From Candidatus Bipolaricaulis sibiricus (GTDB lineage Bacteria > Bipolaricaulota > Bipolaricaulia > Bipolaricaulales > Bipolaricaulaceae), in the NCBI GenBank assembly GCA_004102645.1, contig CP034928.1:186001-250000 (forward strand): a DNA stretch of 64,000 bases. The letters are read 5' to 3'. The position numbers were made by a program, and so were the translations under genes. The notes under the pieces were generated by a model. It saw nothing but the letters and a program-made list of their open reading frames with translations, made no database searches and was not told the origin of the DNA. Positions 17,786 to 47,816 of this stretch are shown here, one piece after another; position 1 is the first letter of the stretch; each line of letters begins with the position of its first letter.

Positions 17786-20179
17786 CTAGGCCCGGAGCTG
17801 CGCACCCAAGGGACCGAGGGAAGCGAGGATACGCTGGACGGCGCCCTCGACCTCCTCGGAGGACAGCGTCCGCTCCCGATCGCGGAACACGACCTCGTAG
17901 GTCAGGCTGACGGAGCCAGTGGGGACCCCTTCGCCCTTGTATAGATCGTACAGGAACGCGCTTTCCACCAGACGCTCGGCGACGATCGCCGCCCGCACGC
18001 TTCCCTCGGGAACCCTCTCCGGGACGAGGAGGGACAGGTCGCGCTTCGAGGCCGGGGAGCGGGGGATGGGGCGGTGCTCGGACGGCCGGGCCGCGGCGCG
18101 GAGGGGTGCCAGGGCCAGCTCGAGGGCGAGGACCCGCCTCTGCCCGGGGAGATCGGCCCTGAGGGACGGGGCGAGCTCGCCGAGCCATCCCACCGGAATC
18201 CGTGGTCCGGGGTCCGTGGTCCGTCGTCCGTGGCCCGACGGATCGCGGTCTGCGGGACACGGCCCACGGAGGTAGATCCCGGCGCGGCGGTGGGGGTGGA
18301 GACGGGGATCGTCGATCTCTCCCAGCTCCACTCCCTCCACCCGCAGGGCGGCGATCAAGGCGTCGAACAACCCCTTCAGGTCAGACGGTCCGTACTCCCC
18401 TTTCCCAGACAGGGGGAACGGCGGACGGCCAGATAGGGCGACCGCCACGCGGTCCTCCTCAGCGATCTCCCCGTCCCGCCGCAGGAACACCCGCCCGACC
18501 TCGAACAGGGCGACGCCCGGCGCCTGAGCCTCGAGGTTCGCCCGGAGCGCGGCGAGGAGCCCGGAGAGAAGGCTTGGCCTCAATCCCTCCCAACCCTGGG
18601 CGAGGGGGTTACGCAGCTGGACTTGTGCCTCGGCCGCGGCGACGAGGCCGGGGGTGTACGCCTCGGTCAACCCCAGAGCGGCGAGGACTTCCCGCACTCG
18701 ATCTGCGAACGACTCGGCAGGGTCCTTGGTTCCGATCCTCGGCTCGGTGTGGGGCGGGACAGGCGGAATGCGATCGTAGCCGTGCAGGCGCGCTACTTCC
18801 TCGATCAAGTCGATCTCTCGTTCCAGGTCCCGCCGAAACGGAGGAACCGTGGTCTCCCACGTGTGCCCTCGGTCGCGGAGCGACAGACCGAGGCGCGACA
18901 GCCCGTCGGTCACTTCCGGGGAAGGAACCTCAACTCCCAGGACGTGGGCGACGCGCTGCTTGCGCAGTGCGATGACGCGGGTCGGGGTGGGGGCCGGGTA
19001 TGCGTCCACCGCCCCTCGTGCGACCACCATCCCGTGCGGGGCGAGGAGGGCACAACAGCGGCGGGAAGCCACGTCGGCCATCTCCGGCGAGAGACCTCGC
19101 TCGAACCGCAGGCTGGCTTCGGTACGCAGTCCGACGGCGCGCGCGGACCGACGTACCCGGGCAGGAGAGAACGCTGCCGCCTCGAGAAGCACCGTCTGCG
19201 TGTGGGGGCCGACCTCGGGTTCTGCCCCGCCCATCACCCCGGCTACCGCCACGGGCCGCGCCGCGTCGGCGATCACGAGGACCTCCGGGGAGAGATCGCG
19301 CTCGACCCCATCGAGGGTGCGGATCTTCTCCCCCGGTCTGGCCCGTCGGACGACGATCCGCCCTTCCGACAGCTGAGCGTGGTCGAACGCGTGCAGCGGA
19401 TGTCCGAGCTCGAGGAGCACGTAGTTCGTGACGTCAACCACCAACGACAAGGGCCGCATCCCCGCCTTGAGAAGTCGCGCCTCGATCGCAAGTGGGGAGG
19501 GCTGGCTCCCTGCGCCACGGATGATCCGGGCCACGTAGCGCGGGCAGTCTCTGGGGTCGGCGATGTGAACCGAGGTGAGGCTTGCTGCGGCTGGGTCAGA
19601 CTCCGGGAACGATCGATCGGGTTCGCGAAGGGGCGTCTGGTACAGCGCGGAGATCTCGCGGGCGATCCCCACGATTCCCAGCAGATCGGGGCGGTTCGAC
19701 GTGATCTTGAGGTCGAGCACTGTGTCTGGGAAGCCGATGAGCGGAGCAAACTCTGAGCCCACCGTCAGCTCCTGAGACAGATCCCAGATCCCCGCCGACT
19801 TCGCTTCCAGGCCTAGCTCCTGGCGGGAGAGGATCATTCCTTCGCTCCTCACGCCCCGCAGCGTGACCACGGAGACCGTTCCGCCAGGGATGCGGGCCCC
19901 CGGAAGGGCAAGCGGAACCAGAGCTCCTGCGGCTACGTTCGGTGCCCCGCAGACCACGGTCCTCGTTCCCGAGCCGATCTCGACCTGACACACGGCGAGC
20001 GCATCTGCCTTGGGGTGGGGTTCGACCTCGGCCACGCGGGCCACGATCACGCCCTCCGCCAGCAGGGCCGTGATCCCCTCCACCTCCAATCCAGCCAGCG
20101 TCAAGCGCTCGGCGAGCGCCTCGACGGTGACCGGCGGAAGGTCTACGTACTCGGAAAGCCAACTCAAGGATGCCCGCAC
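17786..20179 (-). CDS. pheT: Phenylalanyl-tRNA synthetase beta chain
   Basis: 797 residues from the GTG at 20179, with AGGGGAGG upstream. The N-terminal tRNA-binding EMAP/OB domain (about 38-145, VARVAEVEPHPKADALAVCQV) is followed by B3/4 (SNRPDLLGIVGIAREI), B5, the catalytic-like core and the C-terminal anticodon-binding FDX-ACB domain (YDLYKGEGVPTGSVSLTYEVVF). The alpha chain gene pheS is not adjacent; an unrelated peptidase gene lies upstream. Near residues 635-660 an extra stretch (RGPCPADRDPSGHGRRTTDP) interrupts the normally tight turn between YLRG and IPVGWLGEL. It is encoded by an in-frame micro-repeat at 18201-18237. Expected activity: charging tRNA-Phe as an alpha2-beta2 tetramer. 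Confidence 0.95.
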   Translation of the reverse strand: MRASLSWLSEYVDLPPVTVEALAERLTLAGLEVEGITALLAEGVIVARVAEVEPHPKADALAVCQVEIGSGTRTVVCGAPNVAAGALVPLALPGARIPGGTVSVVTLRGVRSEGMILSRQELGLEAKSAGIWDLSQELTVGSEFAPLIGFPDTVLDLKITSNRPDLLGIVGIAREISALYQTPLREPDRSFPESDPAAASLTSVHIADPRDCPRYVARIIRGAGSQPSPLAIEARLLKAGMRPLSLVVDVTNYVLLELGHPLHAFDHAQLSEGRIVVRRARPGEKIRTLDGVERDLSPEVLVIADAARPVAVAGVMGGAEPEVGPHTQTVLLEAAAFSPARVRRSARAVGLRTEASLRFERGLSPEMADVASRRCCALLAPHGMVVARGAVDAYPAPTPTRVIALRKQRVAHVLGVEVPSPEVTDGLSRLGLSLRDRGHTWETTVPPFRRDLEREIDLIEEVARLHGYDRIPPVPPHTEPRIGTKDPAESFADRVREVLAALGLTEAYTPGLVAAAEAQVQLRNPLAQGWEGLRPSLLSGLLAALRANLEAQAPGVALFEVGRVFLRRDGEIAEEDRVAVALSGRPPFPLSGKGEYGPSDLKGLFDALIAALRVEGVELGEIDDPRLHPHRRAGIYLRGPCPADRDPSGHGRRTTDPGPRIPVGWLGELAPSLRADLPGQRRVLALELALAPLRAAARPSEHRPIPRSPASKRDLSLLVPERVPEGSVRAAIVAERLVESAFLYDLYKGEGVPTGSVSLTYEVVFRDRERTLSSEEVEGAVQRILASLGPLGAQLRA
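18201..18237 (-). repeat. GTCCGT-type micro-repeat inserted in frame within pheT
   Basis: The DNA reads CGTGGTCCGGGGTCCGTGG then TCCGTCGTCCGTGG, a degenerate tandem of (GT)CCGTGGT units. The same type occurs between genes at 35781-35820. It and flanking bases add about 20-24 residues to PheT without breaking the frame. Confidence 0.7.
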
Positions 20180-27248: not shown

Positions 27249-27269
27249 CTTCCCTGATCCAACCTCCGC

Positions 27270-27297
27270 GTCACTCGTCACGCGTCACCCGTCACCC
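27270..27297. repeat. TCACCCG-type tandem micro-repeat at the 3' end of ruvA
   Basis: GTCACTCGTCACGCGTCACC and the following CGTCACCC are four imperfect copies of a 7-8 bp GTCACCC unit. The ruvA stop codon (27292-27294) lies inside it. The same unit occurs at 42413-42440 and 47769-47803, also at gene ends. Confidence 0.75.
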
Positions 27298-27879
27298 TTT
27301 GGCCAGCAGGGTGAGCGCGCGGCGGATGAGTTCCTCCACCGAGGCGTCGGGTGCCTCCCGCATCAGCTTCTCCACCGCCCGCCGGGCCTCGGCCTCGGGG
27401 AACCCGAGGACCTTCGAGGTGAGGGCCTTGACCACGACCTGGGCCTTCTCCGACGCCGGGGACGGCCCGACCGGGGCCCACTGGGCGAGCTTCCCCGACA
27501 GCTCGACCATCACCCGCTGCGCGGTGCGGCGGCCGATCCCCTTCACCCCGTCGAGGGCCGAGAGGTCGCCCTGTCGCACCGCGGCCGAGAGCTCGGCCGG
27601 CGGCAGCGCCGACACGAGCCGGAACGCGAGCTTGGGGCCCACCTGGGGGACGGAGAGAAGGGCCACAAACATCTCCCGCTCCTCGCGGGTCGCGAACCCC
27701 CACAGCTCGGCCCCGTCGTCGCGGAGGATGAGGTGGGTGAGAAGCCGCGCCGTGTCGCTCGAGCGAAGCTCGTTCACTGTTCGCGCTGGAACCGCGACCC
27801 TCAGTCCGATCCCCCCCACCGCGATCACGAGGGACTCCTCCCCCGCCTCGACGATCGGCCCCTCCACGAACTCAAGCAT
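27292..27879 (-). CDS. ruvA: Holliday junction branch migration protein RuvA
   Basis: 195 residues. Domain I (OB, MLEFVEGPIVEAGEESLVIAVGGIGL...) is followed by domain II with two helix-hairpin-helix motifs (VPQVGPKLAFRLVSALPP; VKGIGRRTAQRVMVELSGKL) and domain III, which contacts RuvB (GFPEAEARRAVEKLMRE). It binds four-way DNA junctions as tetramers. The start overlaps the yigZ stop. The stop falls within a TCACCCG micro-repeat, so the last residues may be repeat-derived. Confidence 0.95.
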   Translation of the reverse strand: MLEFVEGPIVEAGEESLVIAVGGIGLRVAVPARTVNELRSSDTARLLTHLILRDDGAELWGFATREEREMFVALLSVPQVGPKLAFRLVSALPPAELSAAVRQGDLSALDGVKGIGRRTAQRVMVELSGKLAQWAPVGPSPASEKAQVVVKALTSKVLGFPEAEARRAVEKLMREAPDASVEELIRRALTLLAKG

Positions 27880-35780: not shown

Positions 35781-35820
35781 GCCGCGTAGTCCGTTGTCCG
35801 TGAGCCGTAGTCCGTTCCGG
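35781..35820. repeat. GTCCGT-type micro-repeat
   Basis: CGTAGTCCGTTGTCCGTGAG and CCGTAGTCCGTTCCGG lie just after the lipoprotein stop. Same family as the in-frame insertion in pheT (18201-18237). The remaining bases up to 35915 show nothing. Confidence 0.65.
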
Positions 35821-35915
35821 CTCCGACGGTTCACGGGGAACGAAGAGCGGGCCGCGGCAGTCGCCCCGGAGTGCCCTGTCTTGCCGGAGAAGGTGCGGGC
35901 GACCCCGCCCGGCCA

Positions 35916-42087: not shown

Positions 42088-42461
42088 CCGGGCTCATCTA
42101 CGCGTTCCTTGCGATCGGGGCCGCGTTCAACGCGCTCGGGGCGGTGGCGCTGATTCGGTTTCCCGACGTCTACACCCGCATCCACGGCGCGACGAAGTGC
42201 ACAACGTTCGGGTCGATCTTCTCGATCCTCGCCGTCGCCGTGTACGGGATCGCCCATGGCGGCGGGGCAGGCGGGACGATGGCCGTACGGGCGTTCCTCG
42301 CGCTCGTGTTCCTGCTCCTCACGAACCCCACGGGATCTCACGCCCTGGCGCGCGCCGCCCATCGGTCAGGGATCAAGCCGTTCCGCGCCGTCGTGGACCG
42401 CCTCGAAGAAGCGGGTCACCCGTCACCCGTCACCCGCCACGGGCCCGAGGAGACGCGATGA
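42084..42461 (+). CDS. mbhC: Mbh subunit C (MrpG-like) with repeat-derived tail
   Basis: 125 residues from the GTG at 42084. Three membrane helices with the MrpG signature [25 protein letters not shown]. The protein continues normally to about AHRSGIKPF, then ends in [16 protein letters not shown]. That tail is encoded by a TCACCCG micro-repeat (42413-42440), an apparent in-frame extension that still preserves coupling to mbhD. Confidence 0.92.
42413..42440. repeat. TCACCCG-type tandem micro-repeat inside the 3' end of mbhC
   Basis: GGGTCACCCGTCACCCGTCA followed by CCCGCCAC: three to four copies of GTCACCC. Same family as 27270-27297 and 47769-47803. Confidence 0.75.
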
Positions 42462-46046: not shown

Positions 46047-46561
46047 CCGCCGATCAGGTGACGCGGGCACTCACGGCAGCCGTGCCGGGGCTCCAGCCCG
46101 AGCTCCGGCCGCGGAAGGTCGGGGTCCGGTCCCCGGTCGAGGTCCCCGAGCTGTGGGTCGAGGTGCCCCGGGAGGGGCTCGTCCCCGCGGTGGCGGCCCT
46201 CAAGGCAGAGGGCCCGCTCCACATCTCCGTGATCTCCGGCCGGGACGTGGGCGAGAAGATCGAGCTTCTGTACCACTTCGCGGTCGGGTACGGGACCCCC
46301 GGCGGCGAGGTGACCGTGACCCTTCGGGTGACCGTGTCCAAGGCCGACCCAGTGCTGCCCTCGATCTGCGGGCTCCTCCCCGGCGCGGAGACGACCGAGC
46401 GGGAGAAGATCGAGTTCCTCGGCGTTTCGTTCACCGGGATCCCGTCCACAGCGCACGTGTTCCTGCCCGACGACTTCCCCGGCCACCCGTGGCGGAAGGA
46501 CGACCCGGAAACGGCCAAGCTCGTGAACCGGCTCGTGGAGTGGGAGGGGAAAGATGCCTGA
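46043..46561 (+). CDS. mbhK: Mbh subunit K (NuoC-like 30-kDa subunit)
   Basis: 172 residues, soluble. The NuoC-type signature is present as LLYHFAVGYG ... VTVSKADPVLPSICGLLPGAETTEREKIEFLGVSFTGIP. It also has the conserved end DDFPGHPWRKDD. It associates with the large subunit. Confidence 0.93.
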   Translation: MTADQVTRALTAAVPGLQPELRPRKVGVRSPVEVPELWVEVPREGLVPAVAALKAEGPLHISVISGRDVGEKIELLYHFAVGYGTPGGEVTVTLRVTVSKADPVLPSICGLLPGAETTEREKIEFLGVSFTGIPSTAHVFLPDDFPGHPWRKDDPETAKLVNRLVEWEGKDA

Positions 46562-47816
46562 GACCCAGAACGTGTACGAGATCCCGATCGGCCCGATCCA
46601 CCCTGCCTTGAAGGAGCCGATCCGGTTCACGTTCCAGGTGGAGGGGGAGCGGATCCGCGGCGTGGACGTCCGCGCCGGGTTTGCCCACCGCGGGATCGAG
46701 TTCATGGCGATGAAGCGGAACCTGATCCAGACCCTCTACCTCTCCGAGCGGATCTGCGGCATCTGCTCGATCTCGCACCCGATCGCAATCACCCTCGCTG
46801 TGGAGCGGGCGGCGGGGATCGAGGTCCCGCCTCGCGCCCAGTACCTGCGCGTGATCTTCTCCGAGCTGGAGCGGATCCACTCCCACCTCCTCTGGGCCGG
46901 GGTTGCCGCACACGAGCTGGGGTTCGACACGCTGCTTCACCTCACGTGGAAGGTGCGGGAGCAGGTCCTCGACATCCTGGAGGAGCTCTCGGGAAACCGG
47001 ATCGACTACGCGATCCCGATCTACGGCGGGGTGCGGCGGGACATCGTCCCGGCGCAGGTCCCGAAAGTCGAGGCGATGGTCCGCTACTACCGCGGGCTCT
47101 TGGACGAGCTCCTCGACGCGTTCCTCCGCGACCCGTCCGTCGAGGCTAGGACGCGCGACGTGGGGATCCTCACGGCACAGGAGGCCGACTCCCTGTGCGC
47201 GGTGGGCCCCACTGCCCGCGCGTCGGGCCTCTCGAAGGACGTGCGCCAGGACCGGCCGTACCTCGTGTACGGCGAGCTTGGGGTGAGGGCGATCACGCCG
47301 CGCGACTGGGGCCTCGAGCCACGGGGCGACGTGTACGACAAGGCCGTCGTCCGGCTCCTCGAGATCGGCCAGTCCCTCGACCTCATCGAGAAGTGCCTGT
47401 ACGAGATGCCAGACGGGGAGATCACCTCGTTCCCGAAGATCCCCGCCCTCCTCGCCTACCTCAAGAAGGCCGAGGGCGAGGGGTTGGGCTGGCACGAGGC
47501 GCCGCGGGGCGAGGTCATCCACTACATCCGCCTCGAGGCCGGGGTCGAGGAACCCGTTGTGTGGAAGGTGAAGGCCCCCACGTACTCGAACCTCATGAGC
47601 TGGGTCCCCATGTTCCGCGACCAGGAGGTGGCCGACATCCCGATCATCGCCGCCTCGATCGATCCCTGCATGTGCTGCATGGACCGCGTGCACGTGGTGC
47701 GCGACGGCTCCCCCGGGACGGTGCTCAAGGAGGAGCTCCTCCGCCTGTCCCGCGCCAAGACGGAGCGTGTCACCCGTCACCTGTCCCCCGTCCCCCGTCA
47801 CGGAGGTGCCGCATGA
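46554..47816 (+). CDS. mbhL: Mbh subunit L, [NiFe]-hydrogenase large subunit
   Basis: 420 residues. It has the complete nickel site: L1 RICGICS (Cys68, Cys71) and L2 DPCMCCMDR (Cys372, Cys375). All four terminal/bridging Cys are present, which distinguishes it from complex I NuoD and from sulfane reductase MbsL. It reduces protons to H2 using ferredoxin electrons. The C-terminus, RVTRHLSPVPRHGGAA, is encoded by a TCACCCG micro-repeat and is therefore probably unrelated to the ancestral end. Confidence 0.96.
   Translation: MPETQNVYEIPIGPIHPALKEPIRFTFQVEGERIRGVDVRAGFAHRGIEFMAMKRNLIQTLYLSERICGICSISHPIAITLAVERAAGIEVPPRAQYLRVIFSELERIHSHLLWAGVAAHELGFDTLLHLTWKVREQVLDILEELSGNRIDYAIPIYGGVRRDIVPAQVPKVEAMVRYYRGLLDELLDAFLRDPSVEARTRDVGILTAQEADSLCAVGPTARASGLSKDVRQDRPYLVYGELGVRAITPRDWGLEPRGDVYDKAVVRLLEIGQSLDLIEKCLYEMPDGEITSFPKIPALLAYLKKAEGEGLGWHEAPRGEVIHYIRLEAGVEEPVVWKVKAPTYSNLMSWVPMFRDQEVADIPIIAASIDPCMCCMDRVHVVRDGSPGTVLKEELLRLSRAKTERVTRHLSPVPRHGGAA
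47769..47803. repeat. TCACCCG-type micro-repeat inside the 3' end of mbhL
   Basis: GTCACCCGTCACCTGTCCCC and CGTCCCCCGTCACGG: four to five degenerate copies of GTCACCC, encoding the last residues of MbhL just before the mbhM start. Confidence 0.7.

Follow-up and report, generated by a model that had tools for sequence, protein, structure and literature searches.

The window, i.e., the whole stretch of DNA that was analysed (64,000 nucleotides), spans bases 186001-250000 of the genome G000, which is a single contig of 1,701,655 bases, and it contains pheT, the gene for the beta chain of phenylalanyl-tRNA synthetase (Table 1). The domains B3_4, B5, CLM, FDX-ACB and tRNA_bind were assigned to the protein by Pfam, and solved bacterial PheRS beta chains were its best matches in sequence. 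PheT carries an insert, opposite which the solved bacterial chains 2rhs_B and 3pco_B have a gap in the alignment. The loop that contains it is 46 residues long compared with 25 in the empty loop of the family, which leaves 21 extra residues, and the reading frame is open throughout. An AlphaFold2 model that was based on a 32-sequence alignment (mean pLDDT 88.5, pTM 0.63) again had bacterial PheRS beta chains as its best fold matches; in this model, residues 641-656 have a pLDDT below 50 and lie between strands 627-638 and 660-669. This makes the insert a predicted disordered beta-hairpin turn within the CLM domain (Pfam 471-690). A first-pass annotation of this DNA had claimed an in-frame insertion of about 20 residues at a surface turn, accommodated in coding sequence and built of the same kind of repeat as an intergenic copy elsewhere in the window, and all of this was borne out. 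Period-7 arrays were found at both 18199-18237 and 35785-35815 (the latter with 4.4 copies and a score of 39 in Tandem Repeats Finder). The annotation had overlooked the inverted repeat that makes up part of the insert (p 0.025 and 0.010 when tested against random 150-mers and the PheT sequence, respectively) and that other heptamers occupy the same place in relatives. The heptamer array and its in-frame placement in PheT are confirmed as real.

Table 1. Position and strand of the pheT gene, its insert and the heptamer arrays in the window
Feature	Position	Strand	Basis and details
pheT, phenylalanyl-tRNA synthetase beta chain, 797 aa, host of the array	17786..20179	-	ORF; Pfam; solved PheRS matches
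In-frame insert, residues about 638-660	18200..18268	-	Protein alignments; gap in 2rhs_B/3pco_B; low-confidence model loop
Heptamer array TCCGTNN, period 7, 5.6 copies, score 57	18199..18237	+	Tandem Repeats Finder; genome-wide pattern; best lag 7
Inverted partner of the pheT array	18253..18270	+	Inverted-repeat scan; arms 18220-18237 / 18253-18270, loop 15
GTCACNN array at the ruvA/ruvX junction	27266..27300	+	
Intergenic TCCGTNN array with inverted partner	35785..35842	+	Arms 35792-35808 / 35826-35842; inverted repeat p 0.059
GTCACNN array, C-terminal end/tail of an MnhG-like gene	42411..42446	+	
GTCACNN array, C-terminal tail of a complex-I 49 kDa / hydrogenase large-subunit-like gene (46554-47816)	47768..47801	+	

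Heptamer arrays across the genome and in other genes

Within the window alone, a 14-base pattern gave a weak signal (4 matches compared with 1.71 expected; 10 of 100 shuffles scored as high). Genome-wide, three units combined into a 20-base pattern gave 52 matches with at most three mismatches and none when reversed, while three consecutive TCCGTNN units with at most two mismatches were matched 105 times, compared with two for the reversed control. A second unit, GTCACNN, was also found in G000 (32 matches, two for the reversed control). Both unit types have a TCAC-like core in common on one strand, and therefore a local change from one unit to the other is conceivable. Among 149 units taken from 25 arrays, positions 2-4 were conserved (C in 125, C in 136 and G in 128), while position 6 was open (G 67, T 37, C 24, A 21). 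According to a rough gene caller, the 25 TCCGTNN arrays with at least two matches in G000 comprised 15 intergenic arrays, eight at gene ends or junctions and two inside genes. The six 20-kb stretches without arrays lay away from the listed matches and thus give no estimate of array density. An inverted repeat (p<=0.05) was detected in seven of the 25 arrays, two of which, as judged by eye, were not built of units.

Apart from pheT, heptamer arrays were found in the coding sequence of several proteins of this genome: inside a hydrogenase maturation protease (P0002; its HycI score of 22.3 bits is just below the cut-off of 23), in the N-terminal ends of P0003, which is hydrogenase small-subunit-like (Oxidored_q6), and of P0004, a protein that we take to be HdrA-like from its domains, and in the C-terminal end of an MvhD-like protein (P0006, FlpD). 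In the protease loop, for which 30 out of 35 matching genomes were aligned and paralogues are possible, a heptamer insert was present in eight of the ten readable genomes of the genus and absent in G003 and G011, whose PheT loop is also empty. The same loop carries in-frame G+C-rich palindromic inserts that are unrelated to the heptamers in G015, G025 and G012 (L143, L144, L149), and in two g11 genomes (L155, L162) REP-like palindromes lie in frame inside this gene; similar REP-like palindromes occur between genes in G000. In a hydrogenase/heterodisulfide-reductase-like cluster (L066:2337-8168), several genes end in or begin with heptamer arrays and one internal loop contains one, with an array spacing of about 2.9 kb that is common to G002 and G010.

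The PheT loop among relatives

PheT was present in 59 of 60 relatives and in 38 of the 40 family genomes, and the only relative from a named collection that gave a full-length match was a Candidatus Bipolaricaulota MAG (74% identity). The loop was readable in 36 of the 40 family genomes (G009, G014, G024 and G062 were left out); it was 25 residues long, i.e., empty, in 16 of them, short (30-33 residues) in five and long (36-62 residues) in 15. The long inserts lengthen the loop by 11 to 37 aa, and the frame is open in all 15, which come from separate genomes. Repeats are prone to errors in assembly, but this constancy of the open frame, together with the single contig of the window genome, makes an assembly artefact extremely unlikely. 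All of the inserts are located at one position of PheT and were found, short or long, in 9 of the 11 genus genomes and 11 of the 25 other family genomes that could be read, so that the insertion is not simply sporadic among relatives, as had been expected earlier. Outside the family, the loop had 25-26 residues in all 16 genomes of the same class that were examined (of 23).

In a PheT tree that was computed by a quick method with the loop columns removed and SH-aLRT as the only support, and which is a tree of PheT and not of species, the inserts were distributed among three groups. The first consisted of nine genus members (seven long and two short inserts), the second of g2, g8 and g9 (three long and one short) with the empty g3 nested inside, and the third of g13 with g7 (five long and two short). 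An empty loop was characteristic of g3, g5, g10, g12, g6 and g11 and of the pair G003/G011. The deep forks of this tree are poorly supported, so that the number of insert gains may differ from that of the groups.

The occupation of one site in three tree groups would be expected of a mobile palindromic element, similar to the Rickettsia palindromic elements or a MITE, that was inserted in PheT several times. An inverted repeat (p<=0.05) in 6 of the 15 long inserts and the unrelated palindromes in the protease loop of G015, G025 and G012 point in the same direction. However, nine inserts had no significant inverted repeat, the same was true of all but seven of the 25 TCCGTNN arrays of the genome, and neither shared ends, a target duplication, a fixed length nor a conserved encoded peptide was seen in the inserts. 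We therefore consider such an element improbable, and with inverted repeats in so few arrays and inserts, the palindrome was rejected as the defining feature of the family.

Selection for the insert, either as an mRNA hairpin or as a functional peptide of PheT, would explain why it was kept in most of the readable genomes of the genus (9 of 11) and in all six of g13, in which hairpins were found. Against this, the length, sequence and presence of the insert vary freely among the family genomes. The covariation of the g13 hairpin was weak (2 of 19 pairs changed on both sides, 69 of 76 cells paired), and the folding energy of the 25 arrays was not below that of random genome stretches (median z -0.26 compared with -0.21, a crude control), which makes selection a very remote explanation. 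The folding test covered 36 of 58 clusters, the 22 clusters with a single match being left out; a conserved RNA hairpin was rejected since no folding-energy excess was found for 25 TCCGTNN and 11 GTCACNN arrays over Markov-resampled sequence, again a crude control. The first-pass annotation had held that conservation of the extra residues across the lineage would speak against its reading; the sequence of the insert is not conserved, and the reading therefore stands in this respect.

Changes between two sister genomes

In the sister genomes G002 and G010, PheT is 93.9% identical outside the loop. Near the start of the HdrA-like gene, the coding array differs between them by two 21-bp indels, each equal to three heptamers, while their intergenic arrays differ in ways other than 21-bp indels. 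A length change of the slippage type was thus observed in another gene and not in PheT. The pheT genes themselves (L011, L018) are 96-99% identical upstream and 99.2% over the final 250 bp ahead of the loop. Their identity then falls to 76.4% and 79.3% in the two 250-bp segments that follow and, about 500 bp further along, returns to 95.6-98%. This looks like an allelic replacement of the gene end with one edge at the array, in which either genome may be the recipient, and consequently the changed insert need not reflect local or genome-wide writing. As for the statement that these repeats are mobile or expand, expansion is supported by the 21-bp differences in another coding array of the sister genomes, whereas for mobility no insertion event that combined an empty site with a target duplication was found, and the single clear change between sisters has the appearance of part-gene replacement.

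The difference in identity between the left and right sides of the pheT array was 19.6 points. At random positions, the median was 2.4 points, the 90th percentile 11.0 and the 99th 38.7. Six other arrays of G002 and G010 gave smaller differences of 0.3 to 10.7 points (for two others, scores on the left and right were not both obtained), and heptamer arrays therefore did not emerge as general recombination edges.

Unit type of the loop and of its own genome

In all 15 long inserts, a lag of 7 or 14 was the strongest of lags 4-14; they share a 7-base period but have different units. When scored against the two units, the insert had the commoner type of its own genome in 14 of the 15 (shuffled-label p 0.00095, with shared ancestry ignored), and the commoner type remained unchanged in all 15 when the matches of the pheT array itself (0 to 6 per genome) were removed. 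The exception was G002, with a mixed insert that was discordant with the commoner type of the genome. The most telling comparison, and the sole within-genus contrast of unit type, was that of the g8 sisters: G018 has 13 TCCGTNN matches, one GTCACNN match and a TCCGTGA insert, while G026 has 11 TCCGTNN matches, 44 GTCACNN matches and a GTCACNN insert. TCCGTGA is also common elsewhere in the G018 genome. A third unit, AAGTCNN, occurs on the left side of the g2/g8 inserts and also elsewhere in G012, G018 and G026; it was also found in the genomes of G002, G009 and G010 and in none of their PheT loops where these were readable.

With shared ancestry ignored, loop length within the genus correlated with the number of TCCGTNN matches per genome (Spearman 0.88, n 11) and, in the family, with the summed count of both units (Spearman 0.81, n 36). 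In G003 and G011, the unit is absent genome-wide and the PheT loop is empty. Counter-cases were G015 and G025, in which the loop is empty despite 11 and 16 genome-wide TCCGTNN matches, and G019, which has 36 GTCACNN matches and yet a short non-heptamer loop. Outside the family, the heptamer pattern was sporadic, and in G041 the matches of the reversed control exceeded those of the pattern.

The agreement between insert and genome in 14 of 15 cases, the g8 sisters that differ in type both in PheT and genome-wide, and the TCCGTGA unit shared by the insert and the rest of G018 are what would be expected if a trans-acting process copied or wrote the currently common unit throughout the genome, including the PheT loop, i.e., concerted evolution. 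No shared enzyme was found among the 40 genomes, several of which are drafts, and the change between G002 and G010 is better explained by part-gene replacement, so that we regard such a process as possible but on the unlikely side. Its wider form, a genome-wide spread in trans that would rewrite unrelated arrays together and make the PheT loop a reporter of the active unit of the lineage, appears rather unlikely. Among candidate enzymes, a Y1 transposase was found in 18 of the 40 genomes and was missing in the heptamer-rich G001, G006, G018, G019, G023 and G029; several of these are drafts, and hence its absence is not proof. A reverse transcriptase was found in 6 of the 40. Both were rejected as drivers because their presence was unrelated to heptamer abundance. 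The arrays thus do not match REP elements with RAYT in having a cognate Y1 transposase, which was missing in the six heptamer-rich genomes, drafts in several cases.

Discussion

In this study, we found heptamers that recur at one loop of PheT across genera, with units that follow their own genome, which is new here. In our opinion, the insert is probably a tolerated array of degenerate heptamers that belongs to a lineage-specific family and that grows, shrinks and is exchanged. Such arrays, here of the TCCGTNN type and arranged in part as inverted repeats, lie at dozens of sites in Bipolaricaulaceae genomes, most of them intergenic or at the ends of genes. The hairpin turn of PheT, which normally has few residues, may accept a soluble peptide that is free of stops, and since it can do so, the insert would be tolerated rather than used. 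Slippage or unequal exchange presumably makes the arrays longer or shorter, and those in coding sequence would keep only the net length changes that preserve the frame. They may also be replaced when relatives exchange parts of genes, and would erode once their unit has become scarce in the genome around them.

Tandem heptamers are known from cyanobacteria as the short tandemly repeated repetitive (STRR) sequences, whose unit and lineage differ from those described here. A literature search by title among openly licensed papers found no report of heptamer arrays in Bipolaricaulota/Acetothermia. According to an excerpt of the paper on the heterogeneous heptameric repeats (GGGANTN)n of Xanthomonas and Nostoc, these degenerate 7-bp repeats are dispersed and mostly intergenic, frequently form inverted pairs (in Xcc, 70 cases among 186 patterns), overlap genes in 7-11% of cases and differ in length between related species (PMC4692102). 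The Bipolaricaulaceae arrays are similar in being tandem, dispersed and mostly intergenic 7-bp repeats with fixed and degenerate positions. Unlike here, the Xanthomonas/Nostoc unit is described as G-quadruplex forming, and the excerpted account has neither an in-frame array that recurs in one essential gene across genera nor a unit type that follows the genome (PMC4692102).

The TAACTGA direct repeats of Beggiatoaceae, Cyanobacteria and Bacteroidetes, as far as the portion of their description that was available goes, also lie in some reading frames, mostly at protein ends (PMC4679880). The arrays of Bipolaricaulaceae resemble them in the 7-bp period and in the presence of some inside reading frames. 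However, the TAACTGA unit is homogeneous and mostly located upstream of start codons, and the same portion does not mention a tRNA synthetase with the repeat in an internal loop (PMC4679880). Rickettsia palindromic elements, as summarised in part of another paper, are tolerated in frame in unrelated metabolic genes, are about 150 bp long and encode a conserved peptide (PMC10969869). They are comparable to the in-frame repeats in PheT and the hydrogenase maturation protease, but the latter, unlike these elements as so summarised or a MITE, are tandem heptamers without fixed ends or length, the long PheT inserts ranging from 11 to 37 aa. In a survey of prokaryote satellites, heptamers are also named as the origin of some abundant families in bacteria (PMC6749651).

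The safest explanation of these observations is that a changing array is tolerated; spread by a trans-acting process is possible but less likely. One loop of an essential gene that carries species-specific heptamers matched to the genome constitutes a readable record of the birth, change and loss of a repeat family, and demonstrates the capacity of essential enzymes to take in selfish or neutral sequence without loss of the reading frame.
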